Below are positions 2,414-38,312 of a stretch of 64,000 nucleotides of DNA, piece by piece. The stretch comes from Lachnospiraceae bacterium (GTDB lineage Bacteria; Bacillota; Clostridia; Lachnospirales; Lachnospiraceae): assembly GCA_024691305.1 (NCBI GenBank), contig JAILNS010000032.1:1-64000 (forward strand). The letters are read 5' to 3'. The notes under the pieces are model-generated. The model searched no databases, was not told where the DNA came from, and was given only the letters and a program-made list of their open reading frames with translations. Made by a program: the position numbers and the translations under genes. The stretch's first letter is position 1. The number at the start of each line of letters is the position of its first letter.

Positions 2414-3913
2414 ATGATTAAAGACGGGACTCGCAGAAAAAAAACAATAAGGTTTCATATTTCAGCGGTCATATTAATGGCCTTTTTTTCGGTGTCCTTT
2501 TTTTTCGGGTCATATAATGAGGCTTATGCAGCCAAGTCAGGTGCCGCCGGGACACAGGAAGAAATGGATCAAAATGCGGAGGCACGAAAAGAACTGCCGA
2601 TAGAGACAAATGATATCCCCGGATGGCCTGCAGGTCCGGAGATCGGAGCCGAGGCTGCCATACTCATGGATGTAGATACGGGTACGATCCTTTATGCGAA
2701 GAATATCCACGAAGAATTGTATCCTGCAAGTACCACCAAACTTCTTACCTGTCTGTTAGCGGATGAAAAGGGTAATATGGCGGACATGGTGCCATTTAGC
2801 TATGAAGCGGTACATTCGGTACCTTTGGACGGATCCAGCATAGGTATGGATGCGGGACAGTCCATAACACTCGAAGAGTGTCTGTACGGGATAATGGTCG
2901 GCAGTGCCAATGAAGTGGCAAATGCAGTCGCCGAATATACTTCCGGTTCCATCGAGGAGTTCACTAAGCTCATGAATGAAAGAGCTGCCGAACTAGGCTG
3001 TACGAATTCCCATTTTACCAACACGAACGGTCTTCACGATGAGGATCATTATACTTCCGCCTACGATCTGGCACTCATTGCAAAAGAGTATTTCTCTAAC
3101 GATATGCTTGCCCGTATAGCGAACACTCCAAGGTATCACTTTGAACCTACCGATACCCAGCCGGACGATTTTTATCTGAAAAATAAGCATGCACTCATAA
3201 ACGGAGAGGTCGCTTATGAGGGTATCCGTGGCGGAAAAACCGGTTTTACGAGCGATGCAAGACAGACTCTCGTCACGTGTTGCGAGAGGGCGGGAATGCG
3301 CCTTATCTGTGTAATAATGATGGAGGAGACACCGAATCAGTTTTATGACACTGTAACTCTTTTTGATTACGGATACAGTAACTTTTCTCTTGTAAAAGTC
3401 AGTGATTACGAGACGGAATTTACAACGGAAGAGAAGAGTTTCTTTAAAACGGGATCCGATATATTCGGAAATTCCGCACCGTTCCTTTCCATGAATCCCG
3501 ACAGCAGGATAGTACTTCCAAATACCGTAAGTTTTGACGATCTGGATACGGAGGTATCGTTTGAAACAGGGGATGCGGTGGCACAGATCGGATATACCTT
3601 CCACGGAAGGGAACTTGGAACAGCACTTGTGGAAATAGTCGACAACAGCCAGCCCGGATATGAGTTTGAGCACGTTTCCGAAGAAGAGATAGAAGAAGGC
3701 AATTCCGGGATAGCGATAGAAAGAGAAGGTCAGACGGTATTCCTGAACGTGAAGCTTATAATACTTATCGTTTCGGGAACGGCAGTACTCATAGGTATCA
3801 TAATAGTCCTGATACGCCTCGGAAAAGAATACCATTTTTCCGGAAGAAGGGAAGGAAAGAGACGCAGGAAATTCCACAGACACGGAGGCAGAAATGGCGA
3901 TCTGTACCTATGA
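2414..3913 (+). CDS. D-alanyl-D-alanine carboxypeptidase (penicillin-binding protein 5 family, S11)
   Basis: N-terminal signal anchor, ASTTKLLTCLL (SxxK), SANEVANAVAE (SxN), GGKTGFT (KTG), C-terminal TM helix. Confidence 0.95.
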   Translation: MIKDGTRRKKTIRFHISAVILMAFFSVSFFFGSYNEAYAAKSGAAGTQEEMDQNAEARKELPIETNDIPGWPAGPEIGAEAAILMDVDTGTILYAKNIHEELYPASTTKLLTCLLADEKGNMADMVPFSYEAVHSVPLDGSSIGMDAGQSITLEECLYGIMVGSANEVANAVAEYTSGSIEEFTKLMNERAAELGCTNSHFTNTNGLHDEDHYTSAYDLALIAKEYFSNDMLARIANTPRYHFEPTDTQPDDFYLKNKHALINGEVAYEGIRGGKTGFTSDARQTLVTCCERAGMRLICVIMMEETPNQFYDTVTLFDYGYSNFSLVKVSDYETEFTTEEKSFFKTGSDIFGNSAPFLSMNPDSRIVLPNTVSFDDLDTEVSFETGDAVAQIGYTFHGRELGTALVEIVDNSQPGYEFEHVSEEEIEEGNSGIAIEREGQTVFLNVKLIILIVSGTAVLIGIIIVLIRLGKEYHFSGRREGKRRRKFHRHGGRNGDLYL

Positions 3914-5990
3914 TCCTTCCTACTGGCAGGATTTTGACAGTGGAAACAGTTTGGAATGGGTCCTTACCGCAGGAAACGGAGCTTATGCCGGGGGATCCTT
4001 GATCGGTGGGCGAAACAGGACTCATCAGGCATATCTTGTAGCTTCGTTAAAAGCTCCGACCAACAGATATGCGGTTCTTGACAACATCACCGAGCATGTG
4101 AGTATAGACGGTACAGACTATGATCTTGAGGCGATACAGCACAAGGGAAAGGTCTGTTCTAAAGGATATAAATATCTTAAAAAAGTAACATATGACGGAA
4201 CGATAAGGTTCGAATACGAACTGAATGCATCCGCAGAGCATGAGTGTGAGTCGGGTGTATGTGCAATGAGCTTAAAAAAGCATATTGCTCTTGTTAAGGG
4301 TGAAAATACCGTTACGATCGATTATGAGATCATAAATTTCTCTGCCGATGAGGCAAAGATCTGTCTTACTCCCAAATTTGATTTCAGAGAACACAATACG
4401 CTTAAGAAAGCCTCAGAGCTTAACTTTAGTTTTATTCTCAAGGATGACACGGTTTCGCTTATTCCTGATGAAAAAGATGATATACGGATAGATTTAAGCA
4501 TAAGCGAAGGCTGTTTTTGGGAACTTGAGGATAAGTATGATAAGGATATAGAGCTGCAGACCGAAGTTGACCTTGAGACCGAGGGGCTGTGCGATTCCTT
4601 CATGCCATACAATATACTTATAGAGGCAGGTCCCGGAGAGTCAAAACATATATCCGTCGTATGCAGCGTGGTAAGCGGTGATAGCGGCCGTTTCGTGGCA
4701 GCAGGCACTGCCCGTAAGCTCATAAACGGGGTAAAAGAGTATTATAAAGATCTTGAGGATCGCGCAGAGACGGCCATGAACGGGACTTTCATAGATCCTT
4801 CGCATAAAGAACTCTTCGACAGGCTTGTTCTGGCGGCCGATCATTTTATCTGTGAGCGCAGATCGACAGGCCTAAAAACCGTACTGGCAGGACTTCCCTG
4901 GTTTACGGACTGGGGCAGGGATACCATGATCGCATTTACCGGGCTCACTCTTTGTACCGTCCGGTTTGATGATGCAAGGGAGATTCTTAAGTCTTTTGCA
5001 TTATATGAAAAAAACGGACTCATACCCAATATGTTTCCCGATGATGGCAAAGAACCGTTATATAACACTGCCGACGCATCATTATGGTTTTTTATAGCGG
5101 TATATAACTGTTTAAGATATGATCCTGACAGCAGGGACTTCATCAGGACCGAAATATATCCGACCCTTCTGCATATCATAACAGCATATGAAAAGGGCAC
5201 GGATAACAGCATTTATATGGAAGAGTCCGGACTCATACATGCGGGCAGCGGACTTGATCAGGTTACATGGATGGATGTGAGGGTCGGAGATCTGGTTGTA
5301 ACCCCAAGACACGGATGTCCCGTAGAGATCAATGCTCTTTGGTATAATGCGCTTAGGATAGCCGTATCCTTGGCGGATATGTTTGGGGATCCGGATACGG
5401 CTAAGCACTGTAATAGTCTTTCGAAGCGTGTTTTGGAAGTATTTGAAAAAACATATTTTAATCCCGAAACAGGATGTTTGTATGATGTTGTAAGCGGATA
5501 TACCAAAGACGGATATACGGACAGGGATCCTTCGATAAGGCCCAATCAGGTATATGCGGTCTCTCTTCCTTTTTCTCCTTTAAGCGAGGAGGCAGCGCTT
5601 TCCGTAGTCAATGTTGTGGAAGAGAGGTTATATGTTGGGGTAGCTATAAGGTCACTTGAACCTTCGCATCCGGACTATCACCCCGAATACAGGGGAGCAC
5701 TAAAAAAAAGGGATATGAGTTATCATCAGGGTACCGCCTGGGGATTTCTTCTCGGTGCCTATATAGAAGCATATTATAAAGTTCATAGCCGGGAAAAAGA
5801 CATAAAAGAGCGCCTGGATAAACTGTTTGAGCCGGTAAGGAAGCATTTGACAGATGAAAACTGTATATGTGGGATCTGTGAGATATTTGAAGGAGCCCCG
5901 CCACATTTAGGGCGGGGCTGCTATACTCAGGCCTGGTCTGTAGGCGAGATATTAAGGGTTTTGTGTGAATATCTTATTGGAAACGAGTAG
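3894..5990 (+). CDS. Glycogen debranching enzyme / amylo-alpha-1,6-glucosidase
   Basis: GDE N-terminal domain plus LPWFTDWGRDTMIAFTGLTL and C-terminal (alpha/alpha)6 motifs; start overlaps the previous CDS by 20 nt. Confidence 0.92.
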   Translation: MAICTYDPSYWQDFDSGNSLEWVLTAGNGAYAGGSLIGGRNRTHQAYLVASLKAPTNRYAVLDNITEHVSIDGTDYDLEAIQHKGKVCSKGYKYLKKVTYDGTIRFEYELNASAEHECESGVCAMSLKKHIALVKGENTVTIDYEIINFSADEAKICLTPKFDFREHNTLKKASELNFSFILKDDTVSLIPDEKDDIRIDLSISEGCFWELEDKYDKDIELQTEVDLETEGLCDSFMPYNILIEAGPGESKHISVVCSVVSGDSGRFVAAGTARKLINGVKEYYKDLEDRAETAMNGTFIDPSHKELFDRLVLAADHFICERRSTGLKTVLAGLPWFTDWGRDTMIAFTGLTLCTVRFDDAREILKSFALYEKNGLIPNMFPDDGKEPLYNTADASLWFFIAVYNCLRYDPDSRDFIRTEIYPTLLHIITAYEKGTDNSIYMEESGLIHAGSGLDQVTWMDVRVGDLVVTPRHGCPVEINALWYNALRIAVSLADMFGDPDTAKHCNSLSKRVLEVFEKTYFNPETGCLYDVVSGYTKDGYTDRDPSIRPNQVYAVSLPFSPLSEEAALSVVNVVEERLYVGVAIRSLEPSHPDYHPEYRGALKKRDMSYHQGTAWGFLLGAYIEAYYKVHSREKDIKERLDKLFEPVRKHLTDENCICGICEIFEGAPPHLGRGCYTQAWSVGEILRVLCEYLIGNE

Positions 5991-7143
5991 GTCCGTCACC
6001 TATGGATACTACATAGAATTCCGGAGTCAGATCGTATTTTTCCTTGTATGCTTTGGTAAGAGTTTCTTTGAAGGCCTCTACCGCATCGTCTTTTACTATA
6101 CTTACGGTGCAGCCTCCGAAGCCGCCGCCGGTTATCCTTGAACCGACCACTCCGTCACAGGACCATGCTGCATCTACCAAAACATCTATCTCGGGACATG
6201 ATACCTCATAATCATCCCTTAATGAAACATGACTTGCGTTCATCAGTTTACCGAAACTGTCAAGATCACCGTCTCTAAGAGCTTGTACGGCTTTGATCGT
6301 GCGCTGGTTTTCATATACTGCATGATGCGCTCTTAAAGCTCTGGTCGGATCTTTTATTGCGGATCTGTATTTTTCAAAATCTTCTTCCGAAAGATCGCCG
6401 AGTGACGTGATGTTTGTAACTGTCTGTAATTCTTCGAGGGCCTTTTCACAGGATGACCGTCTCTCATTATATGCCGAATCAACTAATGAATGCTTAACTT
6501 TACTGTTTGTAACGACTATCTTATATCCGTTTAAAACGATGGGGGCATAGTCGTAATTTAATGTGTTACAGTCAAGGAAGATCGCATTATCTTTTTTGCC
6601 CATTGCGGAAGCAAACTGATCCATGATACCGCAGTTCATTCCGTTATAGTTGTTCTCGCTGTACTGGCCGATCGTCGCAAGGTCCACATTGGTCACTTCG
6701 TCGAGCTTAAAAAGGTCGCGGAGCATGAAACCTGTAAGTACCTCTAAAGAAGCTGACGAGGAAAGCCCGCTTCCTGCGGGGATATCTCCGGTTATGACCA
6801 TGTCAAAGCCGGTATCTATTTTGAGTCCGCGTCCGATAAATGCCCAGACAACACCCTTGGGATAGTTGGTCCATCCGGCTTCTTCGGAAGGATTAAGGTC
6901 ATCCAGGGAGGTTTCATATACTCCTTTGAGCGACTGGTTGATAGAGAAAAAGCGGATCACTCTGTCATCGCGTTTTCTTGCGGCTGCGTAGGTTCCGATA
7001 GTGAGTGCACAGGGAAAAACATGTCCACCGTTATAATCCGTATGCTCTCCTATCAGATTTACGCGTCCCGGAGCAAAGTAGGTACGGATATCGCCTTCTG
7101 CTCCGAATAATTCTATGAATTTGTCATATACACTTTTTTGCAT
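5974..7143 (-). CDS. galK: Galactokinase
   Basis: GRVNLIGEHTDYNGGHVFPCAL, PAGSGLSSSASLE and GGGFGGCT motifs. Confidence 0.97.
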   Translation of the reverse strand: MQKSVYDKFIELFGAEGDIRTYFAPGRVNLIGEHTDYNGGHVFPCALTIGTYAAARKRDDRVIRFFSINQSLKGVYETSLDDLNPSEEAGWTNYPKGVVWAFIGRGLKIDTGFDMVITGDIPAGSGLSSSASLEVLTGFMLRDLFKLDEVTNVDLATIGQYSENNYNGMNCGIMDQFASAMGKKDNAIFLDCNTLNYDYAPIVLNGYKIVVTNSKVKHSLVDSAYNERRSSCEKALEELQTVTNITSLGDLSEEDFEKYRSAIKDPTRALRAHHAVYENQRTIKAVQALRDGDLDSFGKLMNASHVSLRDDYEVSCPEIDVLVDAAWSCDGVVGSRITGGGFGGCTVSIVKDDAVEAFKETLTKAYKEKYDLTPEFYVVSIGDGPTRFQ

Positions 7144-7186: not shown

Positions 7187-7321
7187 GGGTGTGCCGGATA
7201 TCATTCTTAGCAGGCACGCTTGCGCTGCACACGCCTCGCAGCGGATGCCGGGCTCGAAAATACCTCGCCGGGCACCGGCGGGCGTGAAAGCACCTGCTTA
7301 AGAATATTATCCGGCACACCC
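7187..7321. repeat. Structured palindromic intergenic element, copy 1
   Basis: Perfect 14-bp terminal inverted repeat GGGTGTGCCGGATA (7187-7200)/TATCCGGCACACCC (7308-7321), continuing imperfectly to GCAGG/CCTGC. The ~90-nt core is shared with 36979-37106. Confidence 0.85.
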
Positions 7322-7365: not shown

Positions 7366-8013
7366 ATGAGAATAACAAAAAAGGATATAGAAACAAGGCT
7401 TCCGAAGATACTTGAGAGGCTGGATGAAAAATACGGCACAGAGTATGTCTGCTATCTGACGCATGAAAATGCATGGCAGCTTCTTATAGCCACGATATTG
7501 TCAGCTCAGTGCACGGATGCGAGGGTAAATATCGTAACAAAGGATCTGTATGTGAAATATCCTACGGTACAGGCTTTTGCACAAGCTAATCTTAAGGAAC
7601 TTGAACAGGATATCCATTCCACCGGGTTTTATCACAACAAGGCCAAAAATATCATCGCATGCTGTAAAAAACTCATGGAAGACTACGGCGGAGAGGTCCC
7701 ATCTGATCTAGATGAACTCACTAAACTACCAGGAGTCGGGCGAAAGACCGCAAATGTTATCAGGGGGAATATATACAATATACCAAGCATAGTTGTGGAT
7801 ACACATGTAAAAAGGATATCCCGTAAACTCGGTCTTACGAACAACGAGGACCCGGTTAAGATAGAGTATGATCTTATGAAGATACTGCCTAAGGATCACT
7901 GGATAACATGGAATATTCATATAATCACTCTGGGACGTACGATATGCAAGGCTCCTACGCCTAAATGCGATGAATGTTTTTTGCGGGACATCTGTCCTTC
8001 GTGTTATAATTAA
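7366..8013 (+). CDS. nth: Endonuclease III
   Basis: HhH motif LPGVGRKTANVI, VDTHVKRISRKLGL, C-terminal 4Fe-4S cysteines CkaPTPKCDECFLRDIC. Confidence 0.97.
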   Translation: MRITKKDIETRLPKILERLDEKYGTEYVCYLTHENAWQLLIATILSAQCTDARVNIVTKDLYVKYPTVQAFAQANLKELEQDIHSTGFYHNKAKNIIACCKKLMEDYGGEVPSDLDELTKLPGVGRKTANVIRGNIYNIPSIVVDTHVKRISRKLGLTNNEDPVKIEYDLMKILPKDHWITWNIHIITLGRTICKAPTPKCDECFLRDICPSCYN

Positions 8014-35940: not shown

Positions 35941-36960
35941 ATGAAGTATAAAATGATCGCACCTGCCGTACCCAATATGCCCTGGCAGGACAGACCCGAA
36001 GGAATCAAGGGAGCACCTATCTGGAGATATGATGCAAATCCCGTAGTTGACAGAAACCCTATTGAGGGAGTTGCGCGTATATTCAACTCAGCGGTAATGC
36101 CTTATGAAGGCAAGTTCATCGGTGTATTCCGCGGCGAGCAGACAAACGGAATTCCGTATGTATATCTTGGAAGGAGTGATGATGCTCTTCACTGGACATT
36201 CGATCAGGAGAAGGTTCCTTTTGTGGACGAAGAGGGTAAGCCCTTTATGCCTGTATATGCTTATGATCCCAGACTTGTTAAGGTTGAAGATACCTATTAT
36301 ATCATCTGGTGTGGAGATTTCTACGGAGCAGCCATAGGTATAGCTAAGACCAAGGATTTTAAGACCTTTACACGTATCGAAAATCCTTTCATACCTTTTA
36401 ACCGTAATGCGGTACTTTTCCCTCGTAAGATAAACGGCAATTTCGTAATGTTAAGCCGTCCTTCCGATTCGGGACATACACCTTTTGGAGACATCTTCTT
36501 AAGTGAAAGCCCTGATATGACTTACTGGGGCAAGCATCGTCACGTAATGGGACGCGGAAGTGAATGGTGGGAGTCGGTTAAGATCGGCGGAGGAGCAGCA
36601 CCCATCGAGACTTCAGAGGGATGGCTTCTGTTCTATCACGGTGTAAGTTCAACCTGCAACGGATTCGTATATTCGATCGGAGGAGCTATCCTTGATATCG
36701 ATCAGCCTTCGGTTGTTAAGTATCGTTGCGAGAACTTCATCCTCACTCCCGAAGCATCTTATGAAGAGAGAGGATTTGTTCCCAATGTTGTGTTCCCCTG
36801 CGCTACCATTCATGATTCCGAGACCAACAGGATCGCACTCTACTACGGAGCTGCTGACAGCGTAGTCGGACTGGCATTTTGTAACATGGATGACATCATT
36901 GATTATATCAAGGATCACAGTGTAGTAACCGAATCTGATACAGAGATCGGAAGAAGATAA
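35941..36960 (+). CDS. GH130 family glycoside phosphorylase, GH130_2-like (beta-1,4-mannooligosaccharide phosphorylase candidate)
   Basis: IARIFNSAVMPYEGKFIGVFRGE-type motif, YAYDPRLVKVEDTYYIIWCGD, WLLFYHGV. Confidence 0.9.
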   Translation: MKYKMIAPAVPNMPWQDRPEGIKGAPIWRYDANPVVDRNPIEGVARIFNSAVMPYEGKFIGVFRGEQTNGIPYVYLGRSDDALHWTFDQEKVPFVDEEGKPFMPVYAYDPRLVKVEDTYYIIWCGDFYGAAIGIAKTKDFKTFTRIENPFIPFNRNAVLFPRKINGNFVMLSRPSDSGHTPFGDIFLSESPDMTYWGKHRHVMGRGSEWWESVKIGGGAAPIETSEGWLLFYHGVSSTCNGFVYSIGGAILDIDQPSVVKYRCENFILTPEASYEERGFVPNVVFPCATIHDSETNRIALYYGAADSVVGLAFCNMDDIIDYIKDHSVVTESDTEIGRR

Positions 36961-36978: not shown

Positions 36979-37106
36979 GGCTCACGACAACATTCAACGC
37001 AGGCACGCTTTCGCTACTCTCACCTCGCAGCGGCACTATGCTCGAAAAGACCTCGCTTAGTGCCGGCGGGTTCAAAGTACCTGCTTATGAATCGTTATCG
37101 TGAGCC
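36979..37106. repeat. Structured palindromic intergenic element, copy 2
   Basis: GGCTCACGACAAC…ATTCA..GCAGG (36979-37003) pairs with CCTGC…TGAAT..GTTATCGTGAGCC (37080-37106). The core aligns with copy 1 (GCAGGCACGCTTnCGCT, CCTCGCAGCGG, GCTCGAAAAnACCTCGC, CCGGCGGG, CCTGCTTA). Confidence 0.85.
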
Positions 37107-37127: not shown

Positions 37128-38312
37128 ATGCAAAACGAATATAAGATAGATTACAATAAGGGACTTGTAGAAACCGGAAGTAGCAAACGCACAGGTTATA
37201 TAAAAAAGCTGTTTGACAGAGCAAAAGCCGGTGAAGATATCACGGTAGGTTTCCTGGGTGGAAGCATCACTCAGGGGTCGGTTGCGACCGATGATACACT
37301 GTGCTATGCATACAGGGTGTATGACTGGTTTGTCAAAACCTTTCCGAAGTCACACATAACATATGTGAACGCAGGAATAGGTGCGACGGATTCGGAGTAT
37401 GCGGCTGCGAGGCTTTCAGAACATCTTTTGTCTAAAAAGCCTGATTTTGTTCTCATGGAATTTTCCGTAAATGATGAGTGTAACGATCATTATCTTGAGA
37501 CCTATGAGGGAGCTGTAAGGCAGATACTTAATTCTAAACCGGACATCGCATTTATGCTTATGAACAATGTCTTTTACAATGACGGAGCAAGTGCCGAGCG
37601 CATCCACAGGGTTGTTGCAAGACATTATGGACTTCCTTCCGTAAGCATGAGGACCACGATATTTGATGCGATCCTTGCGGGTAATTTTGAAAAAGCTAAG
37701 ATAACTCCGGATGACCTGCATCCAAACGATGACGGACACGGGCTTGTAGCAGGTGTTATCACGACATATCTAGAGAGTGTGCTTTCCGGGAAAACCGATG
37801 GGGCACAGGCCTTGGATAGTGAAATGACAGATGGATCACAGTCCCCGGATGATAAAGGGACAGGGCTTCCAGCACCGATTTCACTTAACCGCTATGAAAG
37901 AAGCGTTAAATACGATAACAGAAATTCCGAACCGGTACTTAAGAAAATGTCCGGATTTACCAGGGATGAAACTCCCCGCACGGCAGTAAGAGACTGCTTT
38001 AAGGAGGGCTTTATCGCTACCGAAAAAGGCAGTTTTGCGGAATATGAAGTGACAGGTTCATGCATCGCGGTACAGTTTAGGCGCACTATAAATCTTCCCG
38101 CACCGGTAGCCAAAGTTACGGTTGACGGAAATGAAGATACTGCAGTCATACTTGATGCGAACTTTGATGAGACATGGGGCGATAAGCTTGTTCTCACCGA
38201 TATTTATATGAGCGAGAATGCAGCACTGCATAAGATAAGACTTGAGATCATAGAGACTCATCCTGATGATAAGGGAGATTTTTATCTTGCCGGGGTTATC
38301 GTGTCAGGATAA
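37128..38312 (+). CDS. SGNH/GDSL hydrolase with C-terminal beta-sandwich-like domain (CE17-like mannan acetylesterase candidate)
   Basis: Catalytic blocks GGSITQG, GIGATDS, FSVND, DDLHPNDDGH; located in the mannooligosaccharide locus. Confidence 0.8.
   Translation: MQNEYKIDYNKGLVETGSSKRTGYIKKLFDRAKAGEDITVGFLGGSITQGSVATDDTLCYAYRVYDWFVKTFPKSHITYVNAGIGATDSEYAAARLSEHLLSKKPDFVLMEFSVNDECNDHYLETYEGAVRQILNSKPDIAFMLMNNVFYNDGASAERIHRVVARHYGLPSVSMRTTIFDAILAGNFEKAKITPDDLHPNDDGHGLVAGVITTYLESVLSGKTDGAQALDSEMTDGSQSPDDKGTGLPAPISLNRYERSVKYDNRNSEPVLKKMSGFTRDETPRTAVRDCFKEGFIATEKGSFAEYEVTGSCIAVQFRRTINLPAPVAKVTVDGNEDTAVILDANFDETWGDKLVLTDIYMSENAALHKIRLEIIETHPDDKGDFYLAGVIVSG

Follow-up and report, generated by a model that had tools for sequence, protein, structure and literature searches.

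A hairpin-shaped DNA repeat of Lachnospiraceae with a conserved core and outer arms that change in concert

The 64,000-nucleotide stretch of Lachnospiraceae DNA analysed in this work (hereafter the window) carries two copies of a hairpin-shaped DNA repeat that appears to be undescribed, as judged from a search of the open literature. This element is probably a non-autonomous palindromic mobile repeat, with outer arms rewritten in concert by template switching and a core that is constrained at each locus. We read the covariation of the outer arms as mainly a mutational footprint and the conservation of the core as the sign of a function, both readings being drawn from sequence comparison. The repeat thus offers what is probably a clear example from nature of helices that covary strongly through the mutation process, beyond selection on RNA, and this bears on all covariation-based RNA discovery pipelines.

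Structure and distribution of the repeat

The initial annotation of the window had described two structured copies that share loop blocks around helices of different sequence that still pair, and all the sequences that it cited were found where it had placed them (Table 1). In copy 2 the blocks are GCAGG/CCTGC, CGCTTTCGCT, AGCGG and the P2 helix CGGCACTATGC/GCTTAGTGCCG with its loop TCGAAAAGACCTC, and the outermost pairing joins GGCTCACGA (36979-36987) with TCGTGAGCC (37098-37106). The helices of copy 1 are GGGTGTGCCGGATA/TATCCGGCACACCC, TGCC/GGCA and TGC/GCA, in agreement with the initial annotation. When copy 2 was used as query in a whole-genome BLAST, copy 1 was recovered with E=7e-13 and other copies in the same genome with E down to 6e-17; a single 17-base block gave 2 matches against 0.26 expected from shuffles. 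A repeat CCCTCTGTGA/TCACAGAGGG lying further out around copy 1 (7152-7161/7343-7352) was set aside, as it probably represents the ribosome-binding sites of both divergent genes.

Table 1. Positions of the two hairpin copies, their parts and their neighbouring genes in the window
Feature	Position	Strand	Remark
Copy 1, whole hairpin	7187..7321	+	between divergent galactokinase and HhH-GPD glycosylase
Copy 1, 5' outer arm GGGTGTGCCGGATA	7187..7200	+	
Copy 1, core, GCAGG through CCTGC	7210..7297	+	97% identity to same-genome C28 copies
Copy 1, 3' outer arm TATCCGGCACACCC	7308..7321	+	
Copy 1 neighbour, galactokinase	5974-7143	-	
Copy 1 neighbour, HhH-GPD (endonuclease III-like) glycosylase	7366-8013	+	
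Copy 2, whole hairpin	36979..37106	+	between GH130 and GDSL/SGNH hydrolase
Copy 2, 5' outer arm GGCTCACGACAACATTCAAC	36979..36998	+	locus-specific
Copy 2, core, GCAGG through CCTGC	36999..37084	+	alignment and fold
Copy 2, CGCTTTCGCT mini-hairpin block	37006..37015	+	family-wide covarying pair C-G/T-A
Copy 2, P1 ACTCTCACCTCGC / GGCGGGTTCAAAGTA, around P2	37016..37079	+	fold and covariation
Copy 2, AGCGG, invariant	37029..37033	+	family alignment
Copy 2, P2 hairpin CGGCACTATGC-TCGAAAAGACCTC-GCTTAGTGCCG	37031..37065	+	same-base mismatch T.T
Copy 2, 3' outer arm TTATGAATCGTTATCGTGAGCC	37085..37106	+	partner of 5' arm
Copy 2 neighbour, GH130	35941-36960	+	
Copy 2 neighbour, GDSL/SGNH hydrolase	37128-38312	+	

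Across the family the element measures about 110-260 bp and folds as one long hairpin, in which the constant core is made up of the CGCTnnCGCT mini-hairpin, the P1 helix, the AGCGG block and the P2 helix, whose loop is conserved. The invariant blocks are CGCTnnCGCT (or CGTTnnCACT, through a covarying pair), AGCGG and CTCGAAAAnACCTCG. P2 also has a conserved mismatch of two like bases, which is usually A.A; the window copies have T.T or G.G there. An alignment of 66 diverse cores gave a single consensus hairpin of 22 pairs, with 92.9% standard pairs; the mini-hairpin pair 26-31 covaries (CG in 60 cores, UA in 6). The test for helix divergence left without compensation, which the initial annotation had regarded as the outcome that speaks against a conserved fold, came out in favour of its observation; 15 of the 22 consensus pairs have changed on both sides. 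Comparison with a shuffled null was likewise in favour of its observation: covariation was 0.455 against 0.184 in shuffles (0/500), and registers slid along the alignment gave at most 0.107. In several loci (L390, L391, L392, L393, L395, L286 and L291) a P2-like insert of about 55 nt sits at the apical loop, at the P2 bulge or at the CGCTnnCGCT mini-hairpin.

A genome-wide covariance search, with a model built in this analysis, revealed further copies. Copy 2 received a score of 95 bits (E=6e-20) and copy 1 one of 85 bits, although both were part of the training set, and the window's genome proved to have 10 copies. Fuller scoring of four genomes gave 33-61 copies each; the counts per genome in the family survey are to be read as at least so many for many genomes. 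The dispersed family with a constant core and paired arms that had been suspected from two copies thus exists. Among Lachnospiraceae, 94 of 200 genomes (93 of 199 genera) have a match to the model; of 291 genomes sampled across the class, 7 were positive, and each of these belongs to Lachnospiraceae. A comparison with Rfam gave no match for the window at gathering scores and none for eight loci at E<=1, and the open literature searched on palindromic or interspersed repeats of Lachnospiraceae held nothing relevant. A major gut family in which roughly every second sampled genus carries the repeat thus appears to have it without an Rfam match or a published description. Carriage by phages or plasmids was rejected, as no match was obtained in phage and plasmid collections or, by exact pattern search, in IMG/VR.

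Genomic placement and mobility

Whether copies are always intergenic had been raised in the initial annotation, and this is almost always so, 91 of 98 copies lying outside large ORFs. Relative to genes, the 98 copies show no strand preference (27 and 34 co-directional in the two orientations, 21 convergent and 16 divergent). In G207, a tally of about 21 to 13 gave no significant replication-strand bias. Clustering of the ORFs around the first 188 loci for a recurrent neighbour or trans-acting gene returned only common transporter and enzyme families. No riboswitch-like fixing of strand or position relative to a gene class was found; indeed, the mixed orientations and the flips of orthologous copies rule out a strand-fixed riboswitch.

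Empty sites in sister species, another check named in the initial annotation, were found when the window's genus was compared by flank search and local alignment. The GH130-hydrolase junction of four species (G002, G003, G005 and G006) is without the copy 2 core and without either arm, and a pre-existing palindrome as target was therefore rejected at this site; in G001 the element is present there, inverted and with different arms. At the copy 1 junction the core is missing in G002, G003 and G006, a short palindrome is flipped between G002 and G003, and a comparison of G005 with G001 revealed homologous arms around an element inverted as a unit. The permease-permease junction has the element in G000, G001, G005 and G006, with dissimilar arms and a flip in G005, and G003 and G004 are without it. 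Orthologous flips of G001 were observed relative to both G000 and G005. The copies that four species of the genus carry at one junction could reflect recurrent insertion into a hot spot and not common descent.

Target-site duplications (TSDs) were confirmed in three relatives (G217, G080 and G140) and not for the window's own copies, which have no clear TSD or shared terminal repeat; the evidence for mobility comes from relatives. In G217, direct repeats of 8-14 nt border all 16 units of about 200 bp that have AGGTAATTGCGAAAC ends, whereas repeats of at least 7 nt occur in 1.6% of mismatched flanks. Of the 20 IS66-type units of G080 and G140, which have GTTACTGTTCACGGGG ends, 9 show repeats of 7 nt or more, in most cases 8, compared with 0.5% in the control, and G080 carries an IS66-family transposase gene between ends matching those of the IS66-type copies. 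Given these duplications and this gene, the unit travels in some genomes as a MITE of unrelated IS types. Ordinary descent of MITEs does not account for the finding of one core within end types that are unrelated to each other. A search for an autonomous parent identified none for the G217 ends or for the copies of the window's genome. In the latter genome, contig 28 carries two identical 133-nt units, each with both arms, at a distance of 724 bp. For the window's genome, the idea that the locus-specific arms are the true ends of the element, bordered by short TSDs, was also considered and rejected, the excess of flanking repeats being weak (at least 8 nt in 4 of 117 copies).

Smaller coreless IS66 palindromes of G140 (L284, L293 and L296) retain bits of the core or of a flanking arm and look like deletion derivatives. 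In the same genome, a 33-nt tandem repeat GTTACTGTTCACATGGGTCTGCGCACCTGTTGC on contig 37 (L292) contains the end sequence of the IS66-type elements. Many copies of G207 (L229-L248) end in AAAAGGGGCTGT/ACAGCCCCTTTT, with no target duplication, like a bidirectional terminator.

Outer arms, core and the source of the covariation

Arms and core were compared at five orthologous copies shared by G254 and G406, sister species of another genus. Orthologous cores are 95-100% identical, whereas paralogues within each genome are 79% identical; the core does therefore look constrained, as judged from five ortholog pairs in two species. Both outer arms were replaced at 3 of the 5 loci (identity of 0.59-0.76 over 45-nt arms). 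Pairing of the replaced arms is better within copies than across copies at two of these three loci and mixed at the third; at L341/L346, cross-copy pairing equals within-copy pairing in one species. An internal inversion of a core block was found in L085. Both there and in L127, it is the CGCTCTCGCT block that is inverted and lies across the hairpin from its usual place, as though the inner part had been turned over.

En-bloc compensatory change, stem extension and loop inversion have been reported as the signature of replication template switching in RNA genes (PMC8794818). The present element shares these features, and differs from the published cases in being a repeated DNA family with long arms around a constrained core. 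The concerted multi-base change of the arms, together with the inversion of loops and units, is thus read here as a footprint of template switching, because the arms are replaced together yet remain paired and lack, on the element strand, the G.U excess of an RNA helix. The initial annotation had taken compensatory helix change as evidence of selection on a fold; the change itself was borne out, but it does not by itself establish selection, since in orthologous loci of sister species the outer arms change en bloc, in both strands at once, and whole units flip.

In the course of events that we propose, three steps are seen directly in the comparisons. The unit comes and goes with its core and arms together. 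In some genomes it behaves as a MITE, dispersing with terminal inverted repeats and with TSDs like those left by DDE transposases, of which IS66 is one. Between orthologous loci, the two outer arms are replaced jointly and whole units invert, and the core hardly changes. DNA-polymerase template switching at the hairpin may copy one arm onto the other, by which pairing would be kept without selection. The core might be kept at each locus because its folded DNA or its transcript serves the cell. Its role would most likely be REP-like, such as protecting the 3' ends of mRNAs, acting in termination or serving as a site for nucleoid proteins or topoisomerase, and our best guess is that it acts as folded DNA or as an mRNA hairpin. 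Since the core is constrained per locus and the arms are freely rewritten, the function of the core is directly testable.

Alternative explanations and related elements

A structured RNA, either a cis-acting mRNA element or a small RNA in which selection on the RNA fold causes the compensatory changes, seems rather doubtful to us. Strong covariation, invariant loops and per-locus conservation of the core are consistent with it, and so is a two-hairpin relative in one other genus that lies 3-9 nt past a stop codon in 12 of 14 cases. The non-Watson-Crick pairs of the outer arms comprise 190 A.C and 148 G.T, a slight excess that fits an RNA made from the opposite strand, and the outermost P1 pair is U-G in 38 of the 66 aligned cores, which leaves room for an RNA role. 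However, the lack of strand preference relative to genes, the flips of orthologous copies and the lack of an Rfam match at E<=1 on eight loci argue against it, as does the rarity of G.U pairs in P2 (453 Watson-Crick, 8 G.T and 5 A.C) despite the free variation of this helix. The core might otherwise be a mobile hairpin that inserts in the tips or centres of palindromes (MITEs, terminators or its own copies) and hence is surrounded by unrelated paired arms. One core is indeed found within IS66-type MITEs, within units of another end type whose TSDs are longer, and within terminator-like palindromes. Because P2 also occurs alone and, as a hairpin of about 55 nt, nested at loops or bulges (L286/L291, L390-L393, L395), such a unit keeps some plausibility, but the four empty sites at the copy 2 junction are without a palindrome and the coreless IS66 palindromes (L284, L293 and L296) resemble deletion derivatives, and we consider it quite improbable. 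A bolder proposal, which appears unlikely, would see in the repeat a novel kind of mobile nucleic acid that acts in folded form: a small conserved hairpin, P2 with its core, would target the tips of other hairpins and palindromes and lodge in them, ride several unrelated transposons and then be retained through selection, locus by locus, as a working hairpin of DNA or RNA.

The initial annotation had also suggested a REP/RAYT- or attC-like element, and neither suggestion was upheld. A REP/REPIN-type element whose folded single strand is moved by a RAYT transposase of the Y1 HUH type would be in keeping with palindromic, intergenic copies in moderate number, with the mismatch in a conserved hairpin and with nested and solo hairpins. 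Nevertheless, Y1_Tnp, searched for at the Pfam threshold and present in 112 of 200 genomes, was not found in 23 of the 42 genomes with at least 10 copies, the window's genome being one of these, and it is not associated with the element (51/43/61/45; odds ratio 0.87, p=0.67). Moreover, the definition of REP/REPIN includes a GTAG/GTGG tetranucleotide 0-2 nt 5' of the hairpin (PMC6006769), and direct reading of the flanks of aligned copies revealed no constant guide of this type before the variable arms. Considering also the DDE-type TSDs of some genomes, we regard this mechanism as very unlikely and, with Y1_Tnp absent from many carriers, reject it as a general one. Integron attC sites resemble the repeat in that the fold is conserved and the stem sequence varies; in contrast to them, the repeat forms no cassette arrays, and its copies lie singly at scattered places, have no neighbouring gene in common and adjoin no recombinase gene.

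Like MITEs, the element that we interpret as a non-autonomous mobile repeat is short, palindromic, without ORF and dispersed within one genome, and it has inverted repeats with TSDs in G217 (16/16) and in G080 and G140 (9/20), as well as an IS66 relative with shared ends; for the window copies these ends are not demonstrable. It differs from MITEs by its folded core of about 80 nt, conserved across unrelated end types and 93 genera, by arms that are rewritten in place and by the unrecognisable ends of the window copies. With REP, BIME and REPIN elements (PMC3116915, PMC6006769) it shares intergenic palindromes in tens of copies, free orientation and a conserved hairpin with a mismatch, but its hairpin is far larger, its long arms are locus-specific, it lacks a GTAG-type guide and many of its carriers are without RAYT.

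The two-hairpin relative (genus g224; L396-L409 in G254 and G406) consists of GTTCTG-CTCTCG..CTCG-CCAGAAC followed by a P2 hairpin. The gene whose stop codon it follows is oriented antisense to it, several such genes encoding ABC transporter permeases, and this placement recalls that of REP elements at 3' ends. In L337, near position 3830, two adjacent P2 hairpins form an apparently multibranched fold closed by GGGAC/GTCCC, and likewise in another species of the same genus (L336). Finally, the element occurs in L154:600-1100 as a tandem array with a period of about 143 nt.
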